NCBI RefSeq assembly: GCF_030253575.1
Contig: NC_080563.1
Location: 11,489,001 to 11,553,000 of the forward strand
Source of the DNA: Rhododendron vialii
Taxonomy: Eukaryota > Streptophyta > Magnoliopsida > Ericales > Ericaceae
Length of the DNA stretch: 64,000 nt
Reading direction: 5' to 3'
Part shown: piece by piece, positions 6,328 through 61,806 of the stretch
Layout: each line of letters opens with the position of its first letter
Numbering within the stretch: position 1 is the first letter of the stretch
The notes under the pieces: model-generated
The model's database searches: none
Seen by the model: the letters and a program-made list of their open reading frames with translations, nothing else
Told to the model about the DNA's origin: nothing
Program-made: the position numbers and the translations under genes

Positions 6328-7120
6328 CAGGGACAGAGCTTGTAAGTGGGGGAGTGGCACGTGCCACCCCCGGCCCATTCCAGAAATACCATATATATAT
6401 ATAGGATACAGTAAATATAAATATGTGAAAGTATTTTCACAAAATGTTACCCACTTTGCACTATAAGAAAAATGAAATTTGGTGACAAAAAAGTGGCGAC
6501 GAAATTTAATTTTGTCGCTGTTTTGACAACTTTCGTGAAGAAATAATTTTGTCACAAATTATACCTATTTAGCGACAGAAAAAATATTTTCGTCACCAAA
6601 GGTATCCATTTGGCGACGAAATACAATTTTCGTCGCCGAAAGCTTAAAAAATGTGACAAAATTATTTTTCATCACCAAAGATAATCATTTGGTGACAAAA
6701 AATATATTTTGTCACCAAATGGGGCCAATTTAGTAACGAAATATTTTTTTCGTAACCAAATGCTTAACTTTGGTGATGAAAATATTTTTTTCGTCACCAA
6801 ATGTTAAACTTTGGTGACGAAAAATATTTTCGTCACCATTTTAATGCTTTCGGCGACGAAAAATATATTTTGTCGACAAATGGGTACCTTTGGTGATGAA
6901 ATTTATAAATTGCACTTTGTCACTAAATATATTTCGGACATAACTCTTTACTAAGAACTCCGATTGAAATAATTTAAATTGAGTTTGAGCAATAACTCAA
7001 ATGCCTACAACTTTCATGTTTATCAAAATTGCTAATTTTAATGTTTAAAAATTCAAAACTACATTCGAAATATATTTTCATGTTAAACATATATGTTATA
7101 TATTAGAGAGGAATTTTCAA

Positions 7121-7449
7121 GTGAGGGATCTCTCATTTTGTTAAAATGAGGAACTTTTATTTCCCGATCAAATTTAAAAATGTGAACCGTTCAATGTGTG
7201 CAGAACGTAATTTTAAGGATCTCCGCAAGAAATCAGCAAAAAAAATGACCGGGAAGGGCGTCATCCGAGCAGTTTTTTTTGAATCGTACAATGAAAACTG
7301 CTCGGATGAAGCTTTTCCCAGTCATTTTTTTTGCTGATTTCTCACAAGGACCCTTAAAATCACGTTCTGATCACTTTGAGCGGCTCGGATCATCGAAATT
7401 CAATCGGGAAGAGGAGTCCCGCATTTTAATAAAATGAGGAATCCCTCAC
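7121..7449. mobile_element. 329 bp foldback element
   Basis: Nearly the whole segment is one inverted repeat: GTGAGGGATCTCTCATTTTG at the left pairs with the reverse of AATGAGGAATCCCTCAC at the right. The inner arms (AAATCAGCAAAAAAAATGAC and its complement, CATCCGAGCAGTTTT and its complement) pair almost perfectly around a loop of about 12 bases near 7285. It lies inside the CACTA-like element. A transcript would form a stem of about 155 bp. Confidence 0.7.
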
Positions 7450-24894: not shown

Positions 24895-25819
24895 TGAAAA
24901 CTCTCGTTTTTGACACACGTACGCCGAGCACGGCGCGGATGCGTTTGCAGGCGTTGGTTGGTTGAGTACGGACGTGCCAAGATTTGTAGCACCTAGCTTC
25001 GGATGACGATTGCCATGAAACGTGACTTCTTAACTTGTAAGGTGATTGCGTGTGATCCAACGGGTAATGATTACAAAGAGGTTCATGATTTGCCACACAG
25101 TTGTGGACTTAAAATTTTCTTAGTCGTAGGAAATGGAACGTAAATCGGAAACTTTATTCTACTGAAATAATAAAATAATACAAGAAAAGTAAAATTCAAA
25201 TTACTAGAAGGAGTGAGTTCGAATGGGTTTGAGTACGAGGTACTCGACAGTCTATTTTGTTGAAAATAGAAAAGTGTTTTAAAGCTCTGGGCATTAATTG
25301 ATATATTGAACCCATTTTTCTTCTCTTAAACTTGTATTTATAGACAAATTAACACTAACCGTTCCAAGTCCGGATGAAACTTCCTGCCATCCCAACAAAC
25401 TGCAAAGTGTCCTCCCACGTTGGCCTTCCTTTCGTTCATACTAGCGGTTACAAGCAGTTCACAGCAGTTGAGTTAGATCATGGGGTTATGTAGCAATTTC
25501 CCATTACTGATTTTCCTCCACTGCACGTGTAAACCAAGCATAATGGGGTCATTGTGACAAAGTCAAATAGCCTTCCATTTTGATTCTAGAAGAATTTCAT
25601 AACTACTCCAAATTAGGATTTCCTCCGGTAACCGAAAAATAAAATATGGGCCAAGTTTCAAGACTAAAATTAATTGGGTCTTAATCCAAATTACAAAATT
25701 AGTGGCCCATTAATTTTCAGCCCGAGAAACTAATGAATATCGGTCCAATTTAATTAATACTAAATTAATTGGCTCTCCAGTGTTAGTTCAAGATTTGGTG
25801 CAAAAAACGGGTATAAACA
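24895..25819 (-). repeat. 3' LTR (in element orientation)
   Basis: 925 bp, collinear with 27946-31467 once the nested solo LTR is removed. It shares long blocks such as GTACGAGGTACTCGA and AGTTAGATCATGGGGTTATG. Confidence 0.85.
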
Positions 25820-30705: not shown

Positions 30706-31472
30706 AAAGGGTAATGATCACAAGGAGGTTCGTGGTTTGCCACATGATTGTAGACTTAAAATTTCATAATCGTATAGGAAATGGAATGTAAATCATAAAC
30801 TTTATTACACCGGAATAATAAAGTGGTACAAGAAAAATAAAATTCAAACTACTTAAAAAAGTGAGTTCAAATGGATTTGAGTACGAGGTACTCGATAGTC
30901 TACTTTACTGAAAATAGAAAAGTGTTTTGAAGTGCTGCGTTTTGATTGGTGTTAGACCCGTTTTTCTTCTCTTAAACTAGTATTTATAGACGAACACTAA
31001 ACCATTCCAAGTCCGGATGAAATTTCCTGTCTTCCCCACAAGCTACCAAGTCATGTCCTCCCATGTTGGTTTTTTTTTCGTTCATACTAGCGGTTACAAG
31101 CAGTTCACAGCAGTTGAGTTAGATCATGGGGTTATGTAGCAATTTCCCATTACTGATTTTTCTCCACTGCAAGTGTAAATCAAGCATAATGGGGCCATTT
31201 TGACAAAGTCAAATAGCCTTCCATTTTGATTCTAGAAGAATTCTATAACTGTTCCAATTTAGGATTTCCTTCAGTAACCGAAAAATAAAACATGGCCCAA
31301 GTTTCAAGACTAAAATTAATTGGGTCTTGGTCCAAATTACAAAATTAATGTGGCCCATTAATTTTCAGCCCGAGAAACTAATGAATATCGGCCCAATTTA
31401 ATTAATACTAAATTAAATGACCTTTCAGTACTGGTTCGAGATTTGGTGCAAAAAACAGGTATAAACAGAGGA

Positions 31473-39206: not shown

Positions 39207-39847
39207 TTTTTTTTTTGAAAGGCAAGTCTTCTATTAGAGATCCAACCGGATCAAAGAGCAAAGCTCAACCGGGAGATTACAAGGGGAAAGGGGAAAAACA
39301 GCACCTATTCTGCTAGCACAAGCTATCCAATTAGCACATCTATTAGCTGTCCGATTACACCAATTGGAAACAACATTAGAAAGAATAACAAGGAAGAGAT
39401 ATCGTCTAAAAGAGCTTGAAGAGTCCAATTCTTCTTTTTTGCATTCGGTTGGAGCATATCGATCAAAGGTTGACAGTCCGATTCAATAATAGCATCCCTT
39501 TTACCCCATGCCTTGGTCATAGACACTGCTACCCGGATAGCCCAAGCTTCAGCTACCAGTGCAGAAGAAACCTTGATTCTCCCATGGTTGATCTCTACCA
39601 TAGACCCATTTTCATCTCTAACTAAGACAGCATACGCAGCAAATTTGTTCGTGGGGTTAAAAGCCCCGTCACAGTTGAATTTCCAGCGGTCGTGGAGGGG
39701 TACGTTGCCACTTAGGAACATTACTATACCCATGATTACGAGCTGGGACATCTACTGGCGAACAAATTGCTGCTAAAAACTCACCATGGAATTCCAGAGC
39801 CTTTGTGAGGGTCCTCTTCGCATTCGGTTTGTGCTTGGAATTCCAGA
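39207..39847 (-). mobile_element. 5'-truncated LINE with RNase H domain
   Basis: On the minus strand the insert encodes a plant LINE RNase H domain: WKFNCDGAFNPTNKFAAYAV, SALVAEAWAIR and IIESDCQPLIDML, then the NWCNRTANRCANWIA tail, split by frameshifts. It ends in a run of A (T at 39207 on the plus strand). The flanking repeats GACATCATAG (39197-39206) and GACATCATGG (39848-39857) are the target duplication with one mismatch. Confidence 0.8.
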
Positions 39848-50612: not shown

Positions 50613-50933
50613 GGGAATGATTTCGGTGTCCCCGGTCATTTTGGAGACACCGTAACTTTTGGCATAACAAAATCATTATGAGCATAACTAAAATCCATTA
50701 CAAGCATAACAGAACCATAGCAAAGCTTAACTAAAACCATAGTAAGACATAACTTGTTTGTTATGCCCTAGTCGGGTTTGGTTACGTCTTGATTGATTTT
50801 TTGAATATTCCTTGATTATGTCTTGTTTGAGTTCTGTTATGCTTGTAATTAGTTTTAGTTATACTCATAATGGTAAAGTTATGCCAAAAATTACGGTGTC
50901 CCCAAAATGACCGGGGATACTAAACACTCTACC
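50613..50933. mobile_element. 321 bp MITE, copy 1
   Basis: Inverted ends share TCCCCGGTCATTTTGG and GTTATGCCAAAA(A/G)TTACGG. The interior is rich in GCATAAC and GTTATG words in inverted order. The flanking targets are AT-rich and only partly alike. It belongs to the same family as 50944-51263. Confidence 0.7.
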
Positions 50934-50943
50934 AGATTTAAAA

Positions 50944-51263
50944 GGATGATGCTATGGTGTCCCCGATCATTTTGTAGACACCGTAATTTTTGGCATAACT
51001 TTACCATTATGAGTATAACTAAACCCATTACAAGCATAACAAAACCTAAACAAGACATAACCAAGGAATATCCAAAAAACCAACCAATGCGTAACCAAAC
51101 CCAACTAAAGCATAACAAACAAGTTTTGCCTTGCTATGGTTTTGGTTATGCTTTGCTATGGTTCTGTTATGCTTGTAATGGATTTTGGTTATACTCATAA
51201 TAGTTTTGTTATGCCAAAAGTTACGGTATCTCTAAAATGACCGAAGACACCGAAATCATTCCC
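50944..51263. mobile_element. 320 bp MITE, copy 2, Mutator-type target
   Basis: Same family and size as the copy at 50613-50933. It is flanked by the perfect 9 bp duplication GATTTAAAA (50935-50943 and 51264-51272), which suggests mobilisation by a Mutator-type transposase. Only 10 bp separate it from copy 1. Confidence 0.8.
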
Positions 51264-51699: not shown

Positions 51700-51851
51700 A
51701 GCCGTCGTCGGTAGATTTGTTCGCAGACCTAGAAGATCCTAACTCGACGATGGCCATGGACGTCGACACGGAGTTTTTTGGTGAAGGCCCACTCGTTTCC
51801 GACAAGAAGCTCGCCGACGCCGACTTCTTCAACTCCTTCGAAGACGACTAA
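51697..51851 (+). pseudogene. 5' coding fragment of an unidentified gene
   Basis: An ATG right after the AG leader opens a 51-residue acidic frame (MKPSSVDLFADLEDPNSTMA ... KLADADFFNSFEDD) that ends at a TAA. Immediately beyond, the DNA becomes the 3' side of the bHLH fragment read on the other strand. The frame looks like the beginning of a real acidic nuclear protein, but I cannot name it. It appears cut at the junction with the bHLH piece. Confidence 0.4.
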
Positions 51852-51852
51852 C

Positions 51853-52253
51853 CGAATGGGGAGATTTGAAGGAGGAACCGTCCACGACGTCGTCGCCGCT
51901 TCCACCTAGACTCAAAGCCATCAAGCCGGATTCGCCACCGGAAATCCCACCCTTGGACTGAAACAAAAACTCCTGCTGAAGCAACAACGACTTGGCAGCC
52001 GCCGCCGATCTGGTGTTGCCGGAGCTTCGCGGACTGATCGTGATCGAAATGGAAGTGATCGTCGGGCATGGAGGCGGAGAGGTCCCACGGGGACTTAGGG
52101 TTTGGTCCGGTGAGGTCGGGCGGCCAGGAGCATGAGGGGAGGGTGGAGGGCATCTGGTCGAGGAAGTTGTCGGGAGACGGCGTCGCTGGATCGAAGTGTT
52201 AAATCTGATTGTTGCTGTCGATCTGTTGTTGTTGAATGGATTGGAGAGACATT
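51853..52253 (-). pseudogene. N-terminal fragment of an LRL/bHLH66-type bHLH transcription factor
   Basis: On the minus strand the frame from the ATG at 52253 reads MSLQSIQQQQIDSNN, a TAA stop where the family has Gln, then HFDPATPSPDNFLDQM, LPSCSWPPDLTG and NPKSPWDLSASMPDD. After a frameshift near QHQIGG it continues with AAAKSLLLQQ, GGESGLMALSLGG and DDVVDGSSFKSPHS. This is the characteristic N-terminal half of LOTUS JAPONICUS ROOTHAIRLESS-LIKE (LRL1-3, bHLH66/69/82) proteins. The basic helix-loop-helix part is missing. The fragment ends in a tail-to-tail junction with the piece at 51697-51851. The Mutator-like element begins within 15 bp of the start codon. Confidence 0.75.
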
Positions 52254-52267
52254 TGGGATTGTTTTAG

Positions 52268-52450
52268 CAAAAATGCTACAAACACAACAACTCCCACACA
52301 ACAACTCACACAATCGCTGACGTCATGATGACGTCAGCATAAAACGACGCCGTTTTGATTTAAAAAAAAAAAAAACACGCCTGGTTCTCCTTACCTTTTC
52401 CCCTTCTCGTTCTCGTTCAAAATACAAACCAGTGGGAGGGGCTCCCACCA
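52268..52450. repeat. left terminal inverted repeat of the MULE
   Basis: Pairs with about 58915-59120 on the other strand, with a variable A-run in the middle and lower similarity at the inner edge. Confidence 0.8.
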
Positions 52451-52585
52451 CAACCTCAGTTCCTCCCCCATCGCCAACAACCGCCACCTGCCACCACCGG
52501 CTCCTACCACAACCCCAGCTGCTCCCCCATCGCCGGCAACCGCCACCAGAACCGGCTTCTGGCACCCCGACGCTGTCCCGGACAA

Positions 52586-52616
<31 letters not shown>

Positions 52617-55042
52617 CTTGTTTTAGATAGATAGATTATCCCCACTATCTACTCCTCATCAATTAGGGGGTTTCAATTTGAGAAACCCTAAAGTGTTGTG
52701 CTGCCGAGAAAAGAAAAAAACAAAAAACCTAATTTGAAAATTTGAGAAACCCCTAATTCGAAAATATGAGAAACCCTAAATGGGAGTTGTTAACCCCAGA
52801 ATAGTGGTTTAACGTGTCGGTAATCTTTGTTAATTGATACCATTTTGTCTTCTGGGTTCAACGATCAACCTCTTGCCCCTTTTGCTGGAATAGTGAATCT
52901 CGGAATTGGAGATACGACCGTCAGTTATCTAGTTGCTATGTATCATGTTTACATTGTGGTGGCATTGCAATCTTTATTAAACTTAAAATAGGGTGGAATT
53001 CAGTTTTAATTGTCTCAAACGCTTGAGCATCGCACGTTGATGTTCCAAGTCAGTTTAGCATGGCTTATTGTTGTATGGAGGACGGGATAATGGTTGGAAG
53101 CACACTGTGCACCTCTGTTGCTCACTATACATGTGTAGCCTTCATGGAGAAGAGAATTTTTGTGACAGTAACTATAGGCTTCTAATCTCCATCTATAATA
53201 TGAGGCCCCTCGTAGTGACACCGTAGCGGAATTTCTCATGGAATTCAATGTCTTCTTGTTGTACATGTTTTCCACATTCTGCGGTTTCTGCTTATTCTGC
53301 TTGAATGCTGCCACACTGCACGTATAGATGAATAACAGCTTGGCGCCTTTACTAAATATACCCATCTAAAGCAAAGTGAAATGTGTGCGGCCATGGAAAC
53401 GAGAACTCGTCAAAATTTTCTAGTTTTACTGTCAGTTAGCAAGAGATTGATGAGAGGAACTATTTCTGTCAATGCTGCAATTAGTTATTTACACCTTGAA
53501 CATGTGCACTTCTATGCCGAAAGCTGATTAGGGAAAGCTGAATCGTTGTTCTTAAGTGCTGAAAGTCAAACTAATATGCTGAATTATGTGCTTAGATGGT
53601 AGAAATTATGTTTGTGTAAGCTGGAAATTATAATTGGAAGCTAAAAACTGAAGTTTATATGCTGAAACTCATACTTAAGTGCTGGAAATTGCTATATGGT
53701 GCTGAATCTATCTTTTTAGAGCACTGGAGCGACTGGTTTGGTGCGGAATTACGGTATAGATGCAGGAAATTATGTCTACAAACTGAAATTAGGTGACTTT
53801 TGCACAAGACTATGTCCAATAAGTTGAATTTGATAAACGGTGAGTTGGAAGTGCTCTTTTTATGTGGTGGAACTTTGTCTAAATGCTGAAATCTATATTT
53901 GACTGCCAAAAATTTGCATTTGAAGTGCACTAGTTCATGTTTGGTACATTTGGGTGATGGCTAGAAACAAAACTATGAATAGAATTTAATTGAGTACATG
54001 GTTATGGTTTTATTCTTATTGATCATTGTTATTCTTAGGTTATGGTTGGAAGATTGGGAGGGCAAGGCAGCTTGATTACATATGGCTGCGAACTTAAAAG
54101 CAAAAGAACGGGAGAGCTTACAAGATTTATGGGCTAGAACTATGGGACCAATAGCTTTGCAAAGACTAGTGGAGACTCGAAAAGGCAGTGAAAGAGATTG
54201 AAGCTATTCAAGTGAATCGAAGGCCAAGAAAAATGATCAATTTGTTGTAGTTTGGAATATTACTATGTACTAAGCTTTGTAATATCAAGTTGTAGTATTG
54301 CAAAACCTAACTTCGTATGTAATTGATAATTGTGATGAGAATGGCCCGGCGTGGGTTTGAAATTTATTGTATTATGGTTTTCGTTGTGAAATGATAATTT
54401 GGCAATAGATTTTGGCTATGAATATAGCTTGTGATTGTTGATTTACAATGAGAAAGGTCCGACGTGGACTTGTGCATAACCTCGTTTGGTTTCTATTGTT
54501 GTTATGGCTGTACTGATTGAGACGTGAGACGTCGGGTTAGGACCAAAAAACAAGGGAGACTATGCCGAAATTTTTCCAAAACCAAATACGGTAGTATAAT
54601 TCTAGTATTAATATTGGTGACTGAATTCACCTCAAAATTTAGTACTATTTTGCTTTTATTCTAACCTATCGATAAAACCTTGAACTGACCAAATCATTCT
54701 CAAAAAAAAAAAAAACTTTCAAAATCTTATCTGAATCTTATCTGATGGAACTATGAATTTAACAAGCAATCAGGTCATTACAGAAGCATAATGAAAGTAA
54801 ATAAATGGTGCAATTTTATGAACAAAAGTAGAATGCGTCTCATTAAAGATGTCAACTTCAAACAGAATTTTCCAAACCATCTACCTTATAAAAGGTCATT
54901 ACAAGATCAACAAACAATCAGGTCTTTCAAGGATACAAAAGGGGACACTGGACACATGACACGATATGGACAGCTTTCAAGGACACAAAAAGGGACACAG
55001 GACACGATATGGATACGATATAAAACAATACAAGCAAGTGAA
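52451..55042. other. left interior of the MULE
   Basis: A CT tract (52591-52616) and a donor-like AAAG|GTCTCT are followed by AT-rich DNA. 53520-53720 contains many loosely repeated TGCTGAA words. A plus-strand frame of 39 codons starts at 54082 (MAANLKAKERESLQDLWART) just after an acceptor-like TTATTCTTAG, and may be the end of a small second gene converging on the FAR1-like gene. Nothing else was recognised. Confidence 0.35.
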
Positions 55043-57961
55043 CTACTCTTCGACATTATCCGATGCATTCATCATTTGCGTATAACTTTGTTGTCCTTCG
55101 CATCCTTGCCATTGACTTTCCAGCATACTTTGTTGTGGTCCTCCCCAATATTGACCTTGAGCTTCCAAAATACCTGATTGTCCTCCTCCCCAACCTTGAC
55201 TACCCACAATAGTTAATTGACCCATCCAAACTTGACCATTTAATAAGCTTTGGTTCAAGCTTGTTCCGGTGGGGCATAAAGTTGGGGAAAATGGAAAGAT
55301 GCTTCCGCCTTGTGTCATATTTGGTCGCATAGGATGTGGCATCATGTTTGGCTACATTGAGTGTCCCATGTAGCTTGGGTGGCCCTGCCCATTAAAACAA
55401 AAGAATTTTGAATAACAATTATATGACACATGAAATTATGCAATTAAAAATAAAATTTCTTACATTTACATTTACAATACTCTCTTGTGTCCCGATATGG
55501 TGGCTAACCGCAAGCTCTTCAACCTCATGAAATTAGCAAATGATATAACTATTACACATTCATCGAACAAATCTATATGTCCATATTAACTAGTAAGCAA
55601 CAAATCGTAAGAAACTTATACCTTGGATTTTTCATTGGATAATGCCTTCTTGGATGTTTGTCTTTTCTTCTTAACAGCTTTTTCCACAGCACCGATCTTT
55701 CTTTTGCACGGCGGTCTCCCTTTTCGTCGAAGACCTTCCGAGTCAAGTATGTTCGTGCTCTGTTTAGGAGGTATAACTCCATCTCCAAGTGAAAAAGAAC
55801 TTTTACGAGTACCAGTGTCATCACCAAGTGAAACCATATTACTTTCACAAACAACCGAAGCTTCCATCAACTCTCGTTTTAGCTCGTGTACCCGTTTCAT
55901 CACCATATCATACTTTTCTTGAGATTCTTCCGCTAAATCAGCAACTTCATTAAAGATATTGCACATGTTGTCATGCCGACGTGCTTCAATTGACGTTGAC
56001 AACTTATCGTAACAGATTCAAACTTTTGTGTGGACCATTTTCACATTTTTACACCATCTTCTCAACACATACTTGTCAGGCACTCTTTTAATTCCCTTTT
56101 GATGCCACACAAATAGTTGATGTTTACATACCATTCCTCTAGACTCGAACAATCGACAATTACAATGTGTTTCATTGGTTTCAGCATTGAAATCAACAGT
56201 AAATGCCACTTGAATCCTCTTTTTCTCTTCTCCTTCGCCATATGTAACCCACTCATTTATCTCATGTTCAGACACGATACCATCAACTTTTGCCGACTTA
56301 TCACAAATATAATGAATTTTATCAAAAAATTGTTTCTGAAACTCCTTAACCTTTGCATGCGTATAAACACTTTGAAATTGTTTTTCCAACTCATCTTCAG
56401 TCATTAACGGGATGAAAGTGTTCCAACTTTTCACATCTGCTTGATTTTCACTTTCTACCTTATTCTCCAATGCATTTTCATATTGTCCTACAAATTGTTT
56501 CAGGGTCGTCTTTGAATGAACGTAACCATCAAAATACGCATTTATATTCTCGCTTCTTTGTATGGATGACATCCCCGCCCAAAACACATCGTTCAAATAA
56601 GCAGGCACCCACCGTTTCCTTTCCAAATACAACCCCTCTAACCATGTGTTACTTTGAAGTTCGTACTTCTTGATGAACATATCCCAAGCATCCTCAAATT
56701 GTTTTATGGTCAATGAAGCATAAACTGCCCTACGCATACACCAACTAATATTCTCATACGCGTTGCACCCATTCAACTTTTCTGGAATCTTTTTCATAAT
56801 ATGCCATATGCACCACCGATGTCGGGTGTTTGGGAATATATCTTCTATAGCATTCTTCATGGCCATACATTAGTCAGTAATAATTACTTTCGGAGCACAA
56901 CCCCACATACATGTCTTCCAAGTCTGAAATAACTACGAAAATGACTCTGTATCTTCGTGAAAGATGAGCCCGCATCCCAATAAAACAGACTGGCCATGAT
57001 GATTCACGCCTACAAACGGAGCAAAAGGCATGTCATGCCTGTTTACCAAGTAAGTTATGTCAAATGTCACAACATCACCGAACTCCTTACAAGCTGCCCT
57101 ACTCCTTACATCCGCCCAAAATACATTCCTTAGTCGACCCTCATCATCCAAGTCCATTGCAAAAAAAAAGTCAGAATTGTCGGCTTTCATCTTCATGAAA
57201 TAATTATGCATCGCCTGAGCATCTCCTTCCACAAGTAATGAACGACGCACTTTATCCACATGATTTCGGCAATCTTTCTGGATATATGGAAGCTTACCAG
57301 GTCCCCCAGCTTCAATCTGAAGTGAGGTATAAGTCTGGTTAAGATTGATCTCAACTTTATCATTCAATTCAAGTTTTCTTTTCACTTGTTCATCGAGTAC
57401 CCTATTGCTCCTCAAATACCTTGCCTTTCCCGGACTCTGGTCATGATTGTGAACTAAAGCAACCCGGTTTAACCTCCACTTTTCATTCGGCTGCAACACA
57501 ACGGTAATATGAGATTGACAATCAATTTTTGATTGTGGCCGTGGTTTGACCGGGTTGCTTGATGTCACTCTTGCCTTTCCAGCACGACTACAAGCTAGAG
57601 TTACATCCTTCAACTGTCCATCTTTTCCCTTTCTCGATGTTCTTTTTGCCACAACAAACCCTTTTTCTTTAGCATATCTTGAGTAGTATGAATAAGCTTC
57701 CTCTGATGTGTCAAAGGTCATTCCCTCTTTCGGTTCTTCAACTCCATCTTCACAATTTTCTGTTGCCTCCTTCGTAGCTCCGCTTGTATCTATTTCACCA
57801 CACTTTTTGATTGAAGGACTACTCCATACCTCTTGGTCGTCTTCACGGTCTCTACTCCATACCTCTTGTTCGTCTTCACGGTCTTCACTCCATACCTCTT
57901 CTTCTTCTACACACTCGTTGTTTGGAGGCATTGCCGATGGAACAGAATCCGACGACATCAT
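55043..57961 (-). pseudogene. FAR1-related MULE transposase gene with four nonsense codons
   Basis: The exons on the minus strand are 57961-55622, 55523-55464 and 55384-55043, all in phase, for about 913 codons. In order they encode: acidic repeats (DRED(E/D)(E/D)QEVWS, residues 20-48); a FAR1 DNA-binding domain (about 89-173, Cys124, Cys148 and the HNH pair at 171-173); a MULE transposase core (DVVTFDITYLVNRHDMPFAP, then RHRWCIWHIMKKIPEKL); a SWIM zinc finger (CNCRLFESRGMVCKH, about 598-612); a basic segment (RKGRPPCKRKIG); and a Gln/Gly-rich tail. The frame is shared throughout but carries stops at codons 343 (TAG, 56933), 364 (TAA, 56870), 648 (TGA, 56018) and 811 (TAG, 55352). The first two fall inside the transposase core, so an active full-length protein is not expected. 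Confidence 0.88.
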
Positions 57962-58025
57962 CTATTGGTTAAAAAAAATGAGACAATTATATAGAGATAT
58001 AATCAACTTACAATGCAATGACTAG

Positions 58026-58914
58026 AGTGAACAACAATATAAGATACAAAAAGACTATGCCGAAATTTTGTTTACAATATAACATTATTCGCAATTGCAA
58101 ATCAATTTGAACATGTATGTAGTCGAAAATTTTAAGTTTTATTAACTAACATTGCGTCTATTTGATACGGGGCAAAAAAATACACAAAAGTATTTTTTTT
58201 GTCCCGTACATTAAATGTACACAACGCTATTATTTGCAGAAGATATATGTTGTGCCCATACACATACTTTTGCTTTAAATAGTCCTTTCAATATCCTAAA
58301 CCGAAACCACTTATACTAACATCAAAACAATCAGGCCTACAGAAATCCCAAACATACTAAAATAAGTCTGTAACATAAAGAAACCACATAAGGTTCAGTA
58401 TTTCATTAAATGGAACCAGGGTTCAAGCAAATCAGACCCTTTTATCCTCCTCTATAGAAACTGAGCATCCAACTCCCCTATTCCCAAAAAAAAAGGTTTT
58501 ACATTTTAATCTCATTAGTTCCCCCAAAAAAAAGAAAAGCAATTGACCCTTTCTGTGAACAACCAACAGGGGAAGGCCTTGTCACTAGGCTAGATGGCTA
58601 TTTTGAAGAACAAATTGGGACACTAGGAATTGGACTAATCATCTCAATCTGAACGTAAATGAAGTCTTATTTCATCATCATGATTTCCATCTTGGTTCAC
58701 TAGTACGCCCTTTTTTTTGTTCATTAGCAACAAATTTAGGGTACTAATTGAAATAAGGAGAGAGAGAGAGAAACCTTCGCTGTGGGTGTAACAATGGTGG
58801 AGTTCTCAGAAATCGGTGGTGGGGGCGGTCGCCGGAGGTGGGGGAGCTCTGAGGTTGGGTTGTGGTGGTCGCCGGTGGTCGTGGGAAGAGTACTGTGGTC
58901 CGTGGTGGTGGTGG
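58026..58914. other. promoter side of the FAR1-like gene, inside the MULE
   Basis: Noncoding DNA between the start codon at 57961 and the right TIR. It should hold the transposase promoter. A G-rich GGTGGTGG patch lies at 58790-58925. Confidence 0.5.
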
Positions 58915-59120
58915 TGGGAGCCCCCTCTAAAATTCTGAATGCTTTTGACTGTCAAAAATGGAGGGAACGAGAAGGGGAAAGGGAAAAGGGTTCAGTTCGC
59001 GACCTGGTGTTTTTTTTTTTTTTTTTAAATCAAAACGGCATCGTTTTATGCTGACGTCATCATGACTTCAGCGGTTGTGTGAGTTGTTGTGTGGAAGTTG
59101 TTGTGTTTATAGCATTTTTG
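58915..59120. repeat. right terminal inverted repeat of the MULE
   Basis: Reverse complement of 52268 to about 52450. The GACGTCATCATGAC patch, the CATCGTTTTATG patch and a T(18) run mirror the left end. Confidence 0.8.
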
Positions 59121-59129
59121 TTGTTTTAG

Positions 59130-60489
59130 GACTGATTTCGGGGCTTGCATTTCTCTGCTGCAAGGCTGCATAACTTTCCTACGCAAATCAGAACATGTTT
59201 TCAAATCTCCCCATTCTTGGGGTGTGAATTCTCACCCCTTTCTGGTTGAGAATAATTCACACCAAGATTTCACAAAGATTTCACACCCATAATTTACACC
59301 AAAAATTTCACAAAGAATTCACACCCATAATTTACACCAAGAATTTCAAGAATTTTGTAAAAAGGCAAAATAGTAAAAGTACCTTTAATCAATGCCTAGA
59401 TGGGATAATAACACTTACAAAAGGGAGTCCGCATTGAACCCAAAAAAAAAAAGAAGGACCGGCCATGAATTTCTCAAGACGAAAAAGACACCGAAAATCT
59501 GAACTTTTGAAAAAGAATGTTAGCCCAAACAACTTGTCTTCTATGTACTTAAAGACAACTTTTCCAAAAATGATTCAGAAAAACCCTAAATAATTTAGAA
59601 AAATCCTAAAATGTTTGTCCAAAGGTAACCTAAAAATAGTATAGACTCACAAGAGAATTGTATCTGAATTCTTTCAAAATAAGTCCCACAATGTGATGAA
59701 TAAAGTGTCACATATCCGCACACAACCTTCAAAAATCTTTGTGGCACATTGCTATGAGTTTTTTGACTCACTTTATGAGTTTTTGTGGCTTACATTTTTT
59801 AATTTTTGTGGTTGTTTATATGAATTTTTGTGTGGTGTTCATATGCATTTTTGTGGTGTTGTAAATGTATTTGGGTGTTGTATGCGAATTTTGTGGATAA
59901 AAAAGACGGCTCAAAGTTATGAGATTTTGTGGTGTTGTTTATGAGATCTTTTTGGTAATCAATTATTGTATGAGATTTTGTGGTAATTCAACATAAAAAA
60001 AATTAGGTAATCAATTATGAGATTTTGTGACTCAAAATACTAGTTGCTTACCGTGTGACATTTTTGGGGGAGTTTACCTTAGACAAACTAGAAACACCAG
60101 TCGGTGGTGTCGTATAATTACTTCAATTGTGCGAATTCATTTTACGACATAAAGATTAGCTAACAATATTGATTATCATCTTGTTTTTCATAAACATAGA
60201 AACCAAAAATGAACTTCTCAAAAAGGAAATTTCATTGTACCTATAAGATTATCTCACAAAATAGCACAGCTGGAACTTGTAATTTTAATTTCTTCCCGAG
60301 TTTTCATAGTGCAAAACTAGATTTTGAAAATGAAAGATAATTGAGCTCTTCTTGGGCTCCACTTGATAAATTCAGAGGGCTCGTTTGACTTTTTAAAGCC
60401 GAAGTTGACGTGAAATATTTCTTTTTCTTTGGTTTTTTTGGGAACCCAAGGGTTCACTTGAGTCCTGTAGCCCCTGAATACAATGTACA
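59130..60489. other. intergenic DNA with short degenerate repeats
   Basis: 59225-59350 holds TTTCACA(C) / AATTTACACC repeats including a doubled unit of about 37 bp (CACACCCATAATTTACACC twice). 59690-60050 has many loosely repeated TTTTGTGGT and ATGAGATTTTGTG words. No gene. Confidence 0.45.
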
Positions 60490-61806
60490 AGTACAGCCAT
60501 CCCAGTTTCGGGATCACATTTCCAAGAGCAAGGAGGATGGGGTCTGGGGGTGAAGAAAATGATGCAACAAAACTTGGCTTTACTGGCAAAGTGGTGGTGG
60601 AGGTTTCACGAGGACAATGACTCACTTTGGGTGAAAGTTATAAAGGGAAAATACATATTGGATCAAGGAACCTGGCTGCCACAACTACTGGAATCAGGAC
60701 AAGTAACGAATATTTGGAAGGACATTTGTTGCATTGGAAATCTCAGTTCGTGTATTGGACCATTAATACAGAAGGGCTTCAGGATCCATGTCCATTCCGG
60801 TCAGGACGTCGTGTTTTGGAACAACATTTGGTTGGGGGATCAAACTATTCGTGAAGCCTACCCAAGACTCTACCTTCTCTCCTCACAAAAAAATGATGTG
60901 GTCAGTATCGTGAGAAATGGAAATGGCCATGGCAATTGGAATATGCAATTTCGGAGATTATTACGTCACTGGGAGGAGGACGAGAGGGAGGAATTAATTC
61001 AAAGACTCCAAACTGTGACGCTGGACCCAACAAAACCAGATTCTTTGTATTGGAAGTGGGAGTATAGCAGGCGTTTTTCAGTGAAATCAGTTTATGAGCA
61101 ATGGGAACGGCAGAACTCTTCAAGAGACCCGGTACTTGGGTTGGTTTGGAAGATTCTTAGCCCTCCTAAAGTGGAAGTATTCTCATGGTTGGCAATTCAA
61201 TATAGGGTGGCTACAAGATCAGTGCTTCACAGCAGAAATCTGATTTTGGATCCACACTTGTTGCTCTGCCCCTTTTGTTCTGAGTTGAAACTCCCTAATA
61301 TCTGTTTCTGTTCTATAATTTTTCTTGGAGGGTATGGTCAATTATTATGGACCGGTGGCATATGAATTGGGTATGCTCGTTTTCTTTGGCAGACCTTGTT
61401 GTCTGGTGTTTGACAATGGGTTTCATAACTTAGTTTGGGAAGCTTGCTTTTTTGCTATCATTTGGTCTTTATGGATAACAAGGAATAACTCAGTTTTCAA
61501 CAATGTTGTTCCAGTGATTAGGGAGGTTAGGGATGGTATTAAAACTGAAGTGGCAATGTGGATGAAAACCAAATTGATATCAAGATCTACACGGTGGAGG
61601 AATTTAAGGGTTTCTTGGATGGTATTCAAAAGTTGAAACTCTAGTCGTGTTCTTGAGAAGTCTTTGGTTTTTCCTCCAACTCTCGGTTGGATGTTTTCTG
61701 TTGTTCTTTTCTTTCTTTTGGCAGTGTAGCATTTTTGTGCTCCCTGCCTCCCCCTCGATGTAACCCGGTCAAGTTTTATAAAAGTTTGTTTTGCCGATCA
61801 AAAAAA
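60490..61806 (+). mobile_element. 5'-truncated LINE (reverse transcriptase C-terminal part)
   Basis: The frame from about 60525 encodes the end of a plant LINE polyprotein: NLALLAKWWWRFHEDNDSLW, VFWNNIWLGDQTIREAYPRL and the zinc-binding-RVT region (SVKSVYEQW, PKVEVFSWLAIQYR). It then shifts frame near 61330 and continues with VWEACFFAIIWSLWITRNN to about 61636. A 3' UTR ending CCGATC plus A(6) follows at 61806. Endonuclease and catalytic reverse transcriptase motifs are absent, so the copy is truncated and frameshifted. Confidence 0.85.

Follow-up and report, generated by a model that had tools for sequence, protein, structure and literature searches.

The 6,853-bp stretch between positions 52268 and 59120 of the window (the whole 64,000 nucleotides of Rhododendron vialii DNA that were analyzed, C7:11489001-11553000) is almost certainly a Mutator-like transposon of the Jittery/FAR1 clade that was once autonomous and now persists as a dead copy. 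This is an element of an ordinary and known kind, and its clade has moved recently in this genome. The preliminary description had called the element "complete", which is true of its boundaries but not of its gene, where four in-frame stops interrupt the reading, as the mention there of domains "repaired in silico" had hinted. From what is known of the family, a FAR1-type transposase with a SWIM-like motif and a DDE, RNase H-like core would bind the long inverted ends, excise the element and join it to a staggered cut in the target (cut-and-paste), and repair of that cut would produce the 9-bp duplication; this copy landed just ahead of the start codon of a duplicated 5′ piece of a gene.

The element is bounded, as had been claimed, by a perfect 9-bp target site duplication (TSD; 9/9), and inverted ends beginning CAAAAATGCTA directly adjoin both of its copies (Table 1). 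These are the two marks of the Mutator superfamily, namely a TSD of 8–11 bp and terminal inverted repeats (TIRs), which are usually long. The end arms show 95% complementarity across the first 108 nucleotides (5 differences) and more differences deeper in; a longer local alignment has 137 of 157 columns identical (87%) with 7 gaps, and alignment of 367 bp against 381 bp retains 287 identical columns of 409, with 70 gap columns. The weak similarity beyond the strong part, out to ~370 bp, is non-random: the inner part alone scores 98, whereas 300 resampled controls averaged -9.9 and reached no more than 41. The earlier estimate of "about 180-200 bp" for the TIRs is thus a fair middle value, as the strong part is shorter and the weak part longer. 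When the whole window was scanned for identical 9-mers lying 150–15,000 bp apart and enclosing ends with at least 20 of 30 matching bases, two pairs emerged, the element (28/30) and a palindrome of ~249 bp at 6581-6829 (25/30); the best score in 60 first-order Markov sequences of window length was 20/30.

Table 1. Features of the element and its target (window positions), followed by related TIR pairs elsewhere in the assembly (contig positions).
Feature	Location	Strand	Remarks
Target: broken 5′ gene fragment	51851..52258	-	ATG 6 bp from TSD
Left TSD, TTGTTTTAG	52259..52267	.	direct repeat; one copy at paralogous empty site
Left TIR, strong part	52268..52418	+	weaker similarity on to ~52634
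23-bp palindrome GCTGACGTCATGATGACGTCAGC within TIR	52316..52338	.	possible protein-binding site
Internal region 3′ of transposase gene	52635..55042	.	six frames without Pfam match
Transposase exon 2	55043..55384	-	113 codons including in-frame stop 55354-55352, plus final stop
Intron, GT-AG, 237 bp	55385..55621	-	predicted; joins exons in phase
Transposase exon 1	55622..57961	-	780 codons: FAR1, MULE/DDE, SWIM-like CxC...CxH
5′ leader	57962..58743	-	pyrimidine-rich tract + AG directly upstream of ATG
Right TIR, strong part	58965..59120	-	weaker similarity inward to ~58740
Right TSD, TTGTTTTAG	59121..59129	.	direct repeat
L039, 983 bp	C12		TSD 9/9
L040, 936 bp	C6		TSD 9/9
L041	C11		TSD 8/9
L042			TSD 8/9
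L043			TSD 7/9
L044/L045, 4,866 bp	C9:28273135-28278000		TSD 9/9
L002/L004, 17.8 kb	C8:12278360-12296150		TSD 9/9; transposase matches within
L010, 7,251 bp	C13:13737646-13744896		TSD 9/9
L006 TIR pair			TSD 4/9

Other repeated sequences were seen in the window. Long palindromic stretches lie at 6535-6906 and 7121-7449, the first of which holds a AAAATATTT repeat pair around inverted ends, and a direct repeat (25059-25819 and 30706-31467) is 87% identical over 769 columns. The intervals 60478-61362 and 39326-39751, with Pfam matches to zf-RVT (1.1e-10) and RVT_3 (3.8e-14), look like remains of non-LTR retroelements.

Both TIRs contain a palindrome (52316-52338 and 59050-59072) in which TGACGTCA cores, presumably bZIP-like, stand beside a near-palindrome, AAAACGACGCCGTTTT, and the window's three TGACGTCA octamers all fall within the two TIRs. 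A literature search for the near-palindrome, in several spellings, found no paper. The binding site described for FHY3/FAR1 is CACGCGC (PMC8599713, PMC13306707), which occurs nowhere in the window, and recognition of the TIRs through that motif is therefore unsupported.

The site into which the element inserted can be compared with one that lacks it. The element sits ahead of the start codon of the target fragment, separated from it by 6 bp and the TSD, and the joined flanks align with a locus on C3 (L058) continuously over the junction, in 291 of 324 columns (90%), with no element present; within the left flank (51700-52267, 568 bp), positions 145–568 match C3:34771364-34771840 at 83%. L058 holds a single TSD copy, TTGGTTTAG, one difference from TTGTTTTAG. 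An empty site had been proposed as a thing to look for, and this locus without the 6.85 kb supplies one that is paralogous, not orthologous. Its own frame is uninterrupted and corresponds in kind to the broken fragment flanking the element; we take L058 to be an LRL-type bHLH gene. The reading RQRVRARRGQATDPHSIAER in L058 is typical of LRL bHLH proteins, but Pfam gave no match to a bHLH domain near the insertion or in L058. Adjoining the target fragment, the stretch 51700-51860, with the plus-strand reading NSTMAMDVDTEFFGEGPLVSDKKLADADFFNSFEDD, partly matches C8:8569817-8569998 at 97% and may hold a second gene fragment beside the first, so that the target may be a patchwork. Also adjoining it is a 650-bp palindrome (50613-51263; 87.5% identity to its own reverse complement) that looks like a foldback element.

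The gene inside the element had been described as FAR1-type, and its read-through protein (P0001, the query for both the Pfam and the genome searches) bears this out, with Pfam matches to MULE (PF10551; 1e-32), FAR1 (PF03101; 4.3e-16), Transposase_mut (PF00872; 9.3e-5) and the ZSWIM1-3 RNase H-like domain (7e-9). SWIM (PF04434) scores 16.0 bits (E 0.0091), below the 19.6-bit cut-off, at a place where the Cys/His pattern is found. The catalytic triad reads D301, D363 and E471, a spacing of 62/108. The exon-intron layout is predicted: among 28 other genomic loci searched, 25 have a match to exon 2, and CAG precedes the exon in 21 of these. The pyrimidine-rich tract and AG before the ATG suggest an intron in the 5′ UTR. 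No Pfam match to a ULP protease or any other captured host gene was found in six frames of 52268-55617 or on the gene strand of 57962-59120; no further FRS gene appeared in the window, where other matches were at E 2.7 or worse, and Rfam gave no match across it. The single PDB match for the first 342 residues, dTor_6x35L (E 0.46), is meaningless. The viral_contigs collection held no relatives by two protein parts or by the TIR pattern, genome_contigs held no relatives of the element, and plasmids held none by TIR.

The frame of exon 1 is open from the ATG at 57961 to 55619 save for stops at 56935-56933, 56872-56870 and 56020-56018; with the one in exon 2, the minus-strand gene has four in-frame stops and hence not the open transposase of an autonomous element. 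Of the 2,334 possible transitions in exon 1, 73 create a stop; by a crude estimate, some 96 random transitions would thus be needed for its three stops. The perfect TSD and the lack of any frameshift across 780 + 113 codons might lead one to suppose that the element is autonomous and mobile today, but with two of its stops inside the MULE domain and a dS of 0.13-0.16 to its nearest copies this is very improbable. Against these four nearest relatives (L010-L013), in which exon 2 is stop-free, dN/dS is 0.21-0.31 (within the pair L010 and L011 it is 0.75), and none of the element's four stops is common to them. The lineage thus probably stayed under functional constraint during its spread, and the copies probably died separately, in the simple reading after landing.

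The preliminary description had proposed a genome search with the TIR for other copies and internally deleted derivatives, and both exist; a lack of further copies with both TIRs, which would have spoken against it, was therefore not what the search showed. In the host assembly (G000; 532,647,506 bases in 13 contigs), 114 candidate matches to the left TIR yielded 40 that were scored, of which two are the element's own arms and 38 lie outside it. Eleven TIR pairs (the element and ten others), picked for having both ends at hand, were checked for TSDs: six have 9/9, two 8/9 and one 7/9, and two are unclear. Dispersed copies that share TIRs and carry their own TSDs are what is expected of a MULE. 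Transposase matches inside the 17.8-kb pair presumably reflect nested insertions. L010 is 97.2% identical over 7,295 columns to a relative on C8 (L011) that lacks a clear TSD, and their similarity ends no more than one base from the TIR ends. The ~1-kb derivatives L039, L040 and L041 are 96.8–99.4% alike across their main aligned blocks and have the family's TIRs, which indicates that elements without a transposase gene moved using these ends; movement in trans thus probably took place within the element's family. The same derivatives, with TSDs at or close to nine of nine, lend some color to the idea that our copy was likewise already dead when an active relative mobilized it. We consider this unlikely, as stops unshared with the four nearest copies are what one expects if death came after insertion. 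For the reading we prefer, of a once-autonomous Jittery/FAR1-clade transposon, the points on the other side are the SWIM score below its cut-off, the differences between the TIR arms, the TSD of 8 bp or none indicated that is tabulated for the Jittery subgroup (PMC6446971), and the want of a clear TSD at L011 and L006.

It had also been asked whether FRS-like genes in this genome are transposons or host genes, and here the answer is partial. P0001 gave 62 match rows (58 scored of 1,081 candidates), 16 of which exceed 600 residues with no stop in the matched frame; we read 13 of these with both flanks, leaving out C5:30952938, C4:33537798 and C4:35298106. In this small sample, picked by similarity to the element, inverted repeats enclose the gene at 8 of 13 loci (L019, L022, L023, L025, L026, L054, L055 and L066). 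A TSD/TIR scan detected six of the eight at 29–30/30 (L055 via an internal repeat), while the window itself, divided for control into ten overlapping 9.4-kb segments, gave at most 19/30; the repeats of L019 and L066 were detected afterwards by self-comparison, so the criterion was widened for these two, and self-comparison of the other five loci gave no inverted repeats. Seven of the eight have TSDs, five perfect (9/9 at L023, L025, L026 and L054; 10/10 at the outer ends of L055, whose internal repeat had scored 8/9) and two at 8/9 (L022, and L019, where it is displaced by 6 bp and was read by eye), while L066 has no clear TSD. Because open frames lie between inverted repeats at 8 of 13 loci, an open frame alone is no proof of an FRS-like host gene.

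The remaining five loci (L021, L027, L056, L065 and L067) have no inverted repeats in the stretch fetched, and their ends may lie beyond it; neither the ends of L022, L023 and L025, tried on all five, nor those of L054, tried on L056, L065 and L067, found a match. The catalytic D, D and E are kept in all eight TIR-bearing loci and in L027, L056 and L065, but the position of the second Asp is aligned with H in L021 and with A in L067, and L021 has one stop in exon 2. In a tree of 29 rows, from which L068 was left out, the element groups with L010-L013 (100/100), and the five TIR-less loci are single branches amid TIR-bearing ones, that of L067 being long. Two open FRS-like frames without detected TIRs, L067 (C11:39072700-39081700) and L021 (C3:23460295-23465538), are on this evidence candidates for recent domestications or decaying copies.

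A host-like gene is L068, the top scorer in a genome search for the FAR1 domain that gave 151 matches (150 of them scored, from 484 first-look candidates). Its frame is open over 749 codons, and the 6.5 kb that were read around it contain only short inverted repeats, of 30 bp and ~50 bp at 80%. L068 carries the same domains as the element's gene, whose layout of FAR1 domain, MULE domain and SWIM-like motif is that of FRS transcription factors, and one could on that account imagine that the element is itself a host (domesticated) FRS gene or pseudogene flanked by inverted repeats through chance. That is scarcely credible: the TSD and TIRs far exceed controls, the paralogous site is empty, copies bear their own TSDs, and D-D-E is intact in P0001, whereas in L068, at 33.5% identity over 630 aligned columns, the position of the catalytic E is occupied by D. 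A domesticated FRS gene should be single-copy and without TIR or TSD, and the element is none of these.

That the clade has been active lately is seen in two 6.89-kb FAR1-type MULEs, L025/L049 (C9:6065594-6072483) and L026/L050 (C4:18826836-18833726), which lie on two chromosomes with different perfect TSDs and align over 6,894 columns at 99.5% identity; FAR1-type MULEs have therefore moved recently in this genome. Their family is related to the element's, with different TIR ends. One can go further and speculate, at rather long odds, that FAR1-type MULEs are still or very recently mobile and that neighboring branches, those of L021 and L067, have yielded fresh, independent domestications. If so, FRS domestication would not be a single ancient event but would still be going on, and could be followed within one genome.

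Plant FRS-like genes have been listed in their thousands. A wide catalogue counts 18,744 FAR1 genes in 80 species; in its main text the words "terminal inverted" appear a single time, in the introduction, and words that start with TIR do not appear at all (PMC8599713). With its exact ends, the element can serve as a probe in this genome, where FAR1-domain loci abound and some of them are transposons. Checks for TIRs and TSDs, perhaps along with a look at the catalytic residues, can be of use in telling host FRS genes from transposons.

Among known systems, the closest comparison is with maize Jittery, a transposon of about 3.9 kb. The element differs from it in its length of 6.85 kb, in the 2.4 kb 3′ of the gene in which no domain is recognized, and in being a dead copy. 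As published, Jittery has D337, D399 and E509 at a spacing of 62/110 and TED a spacing of 62/99, the Jittery transposase has a FAR1 domain, and both elements lack mudrB and have TIRs of ~200 bp and TSDs of 9 bp (PMC9569675). The likeness, which is to the published description and not to the sequence, extends from the DDE spacing (62/108 in our element) to the N-terminal FAR1 and MULE domains, the long TIRs and the 9-bp TSD; just as Jittery lacks mudrB, the element has no recognized second gene, and the extra upstream exon and intron of the Jittery cDNA (PMC9569675) would have their counterpart in the putative 5′ intron here. A tabulated Jittery subgroup of dicots and monocots has an N-terminal FAR1 and a C-terminal SWIM or CCHC, with TIRs of 39–292 bp or none and a TSD given as 8 bp or not indicated (PMC6446971), in contrast to the 9 bp of the element. 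In grapevine, MULE TSDs, where found, are 9 nt, and the Jittery-like families and Jithouse genes have FAR1, transposase and SWIM domains (PMC2528002), the last with a SWIM-like motif as its counterpart in the element. The five Jithouse genes are single-copy and classed as domesticated (PMC2528002), unlike the element with its TIRs, its TSD and its further copies. Domesticated genes are described as having no TIRs and TSDs (PMC2528002). The FHY3/FAR1/FRS factors have a three-domain layout (PMC13306707, PMC2528002) that the element shares, with the SWIM-like motif in third place. Judged by its domains, the assignment of the element's gene to FAR1/FRS holds, and it is at the level of domains that the tie to FHY3/FAR1 is supported and not beyond.
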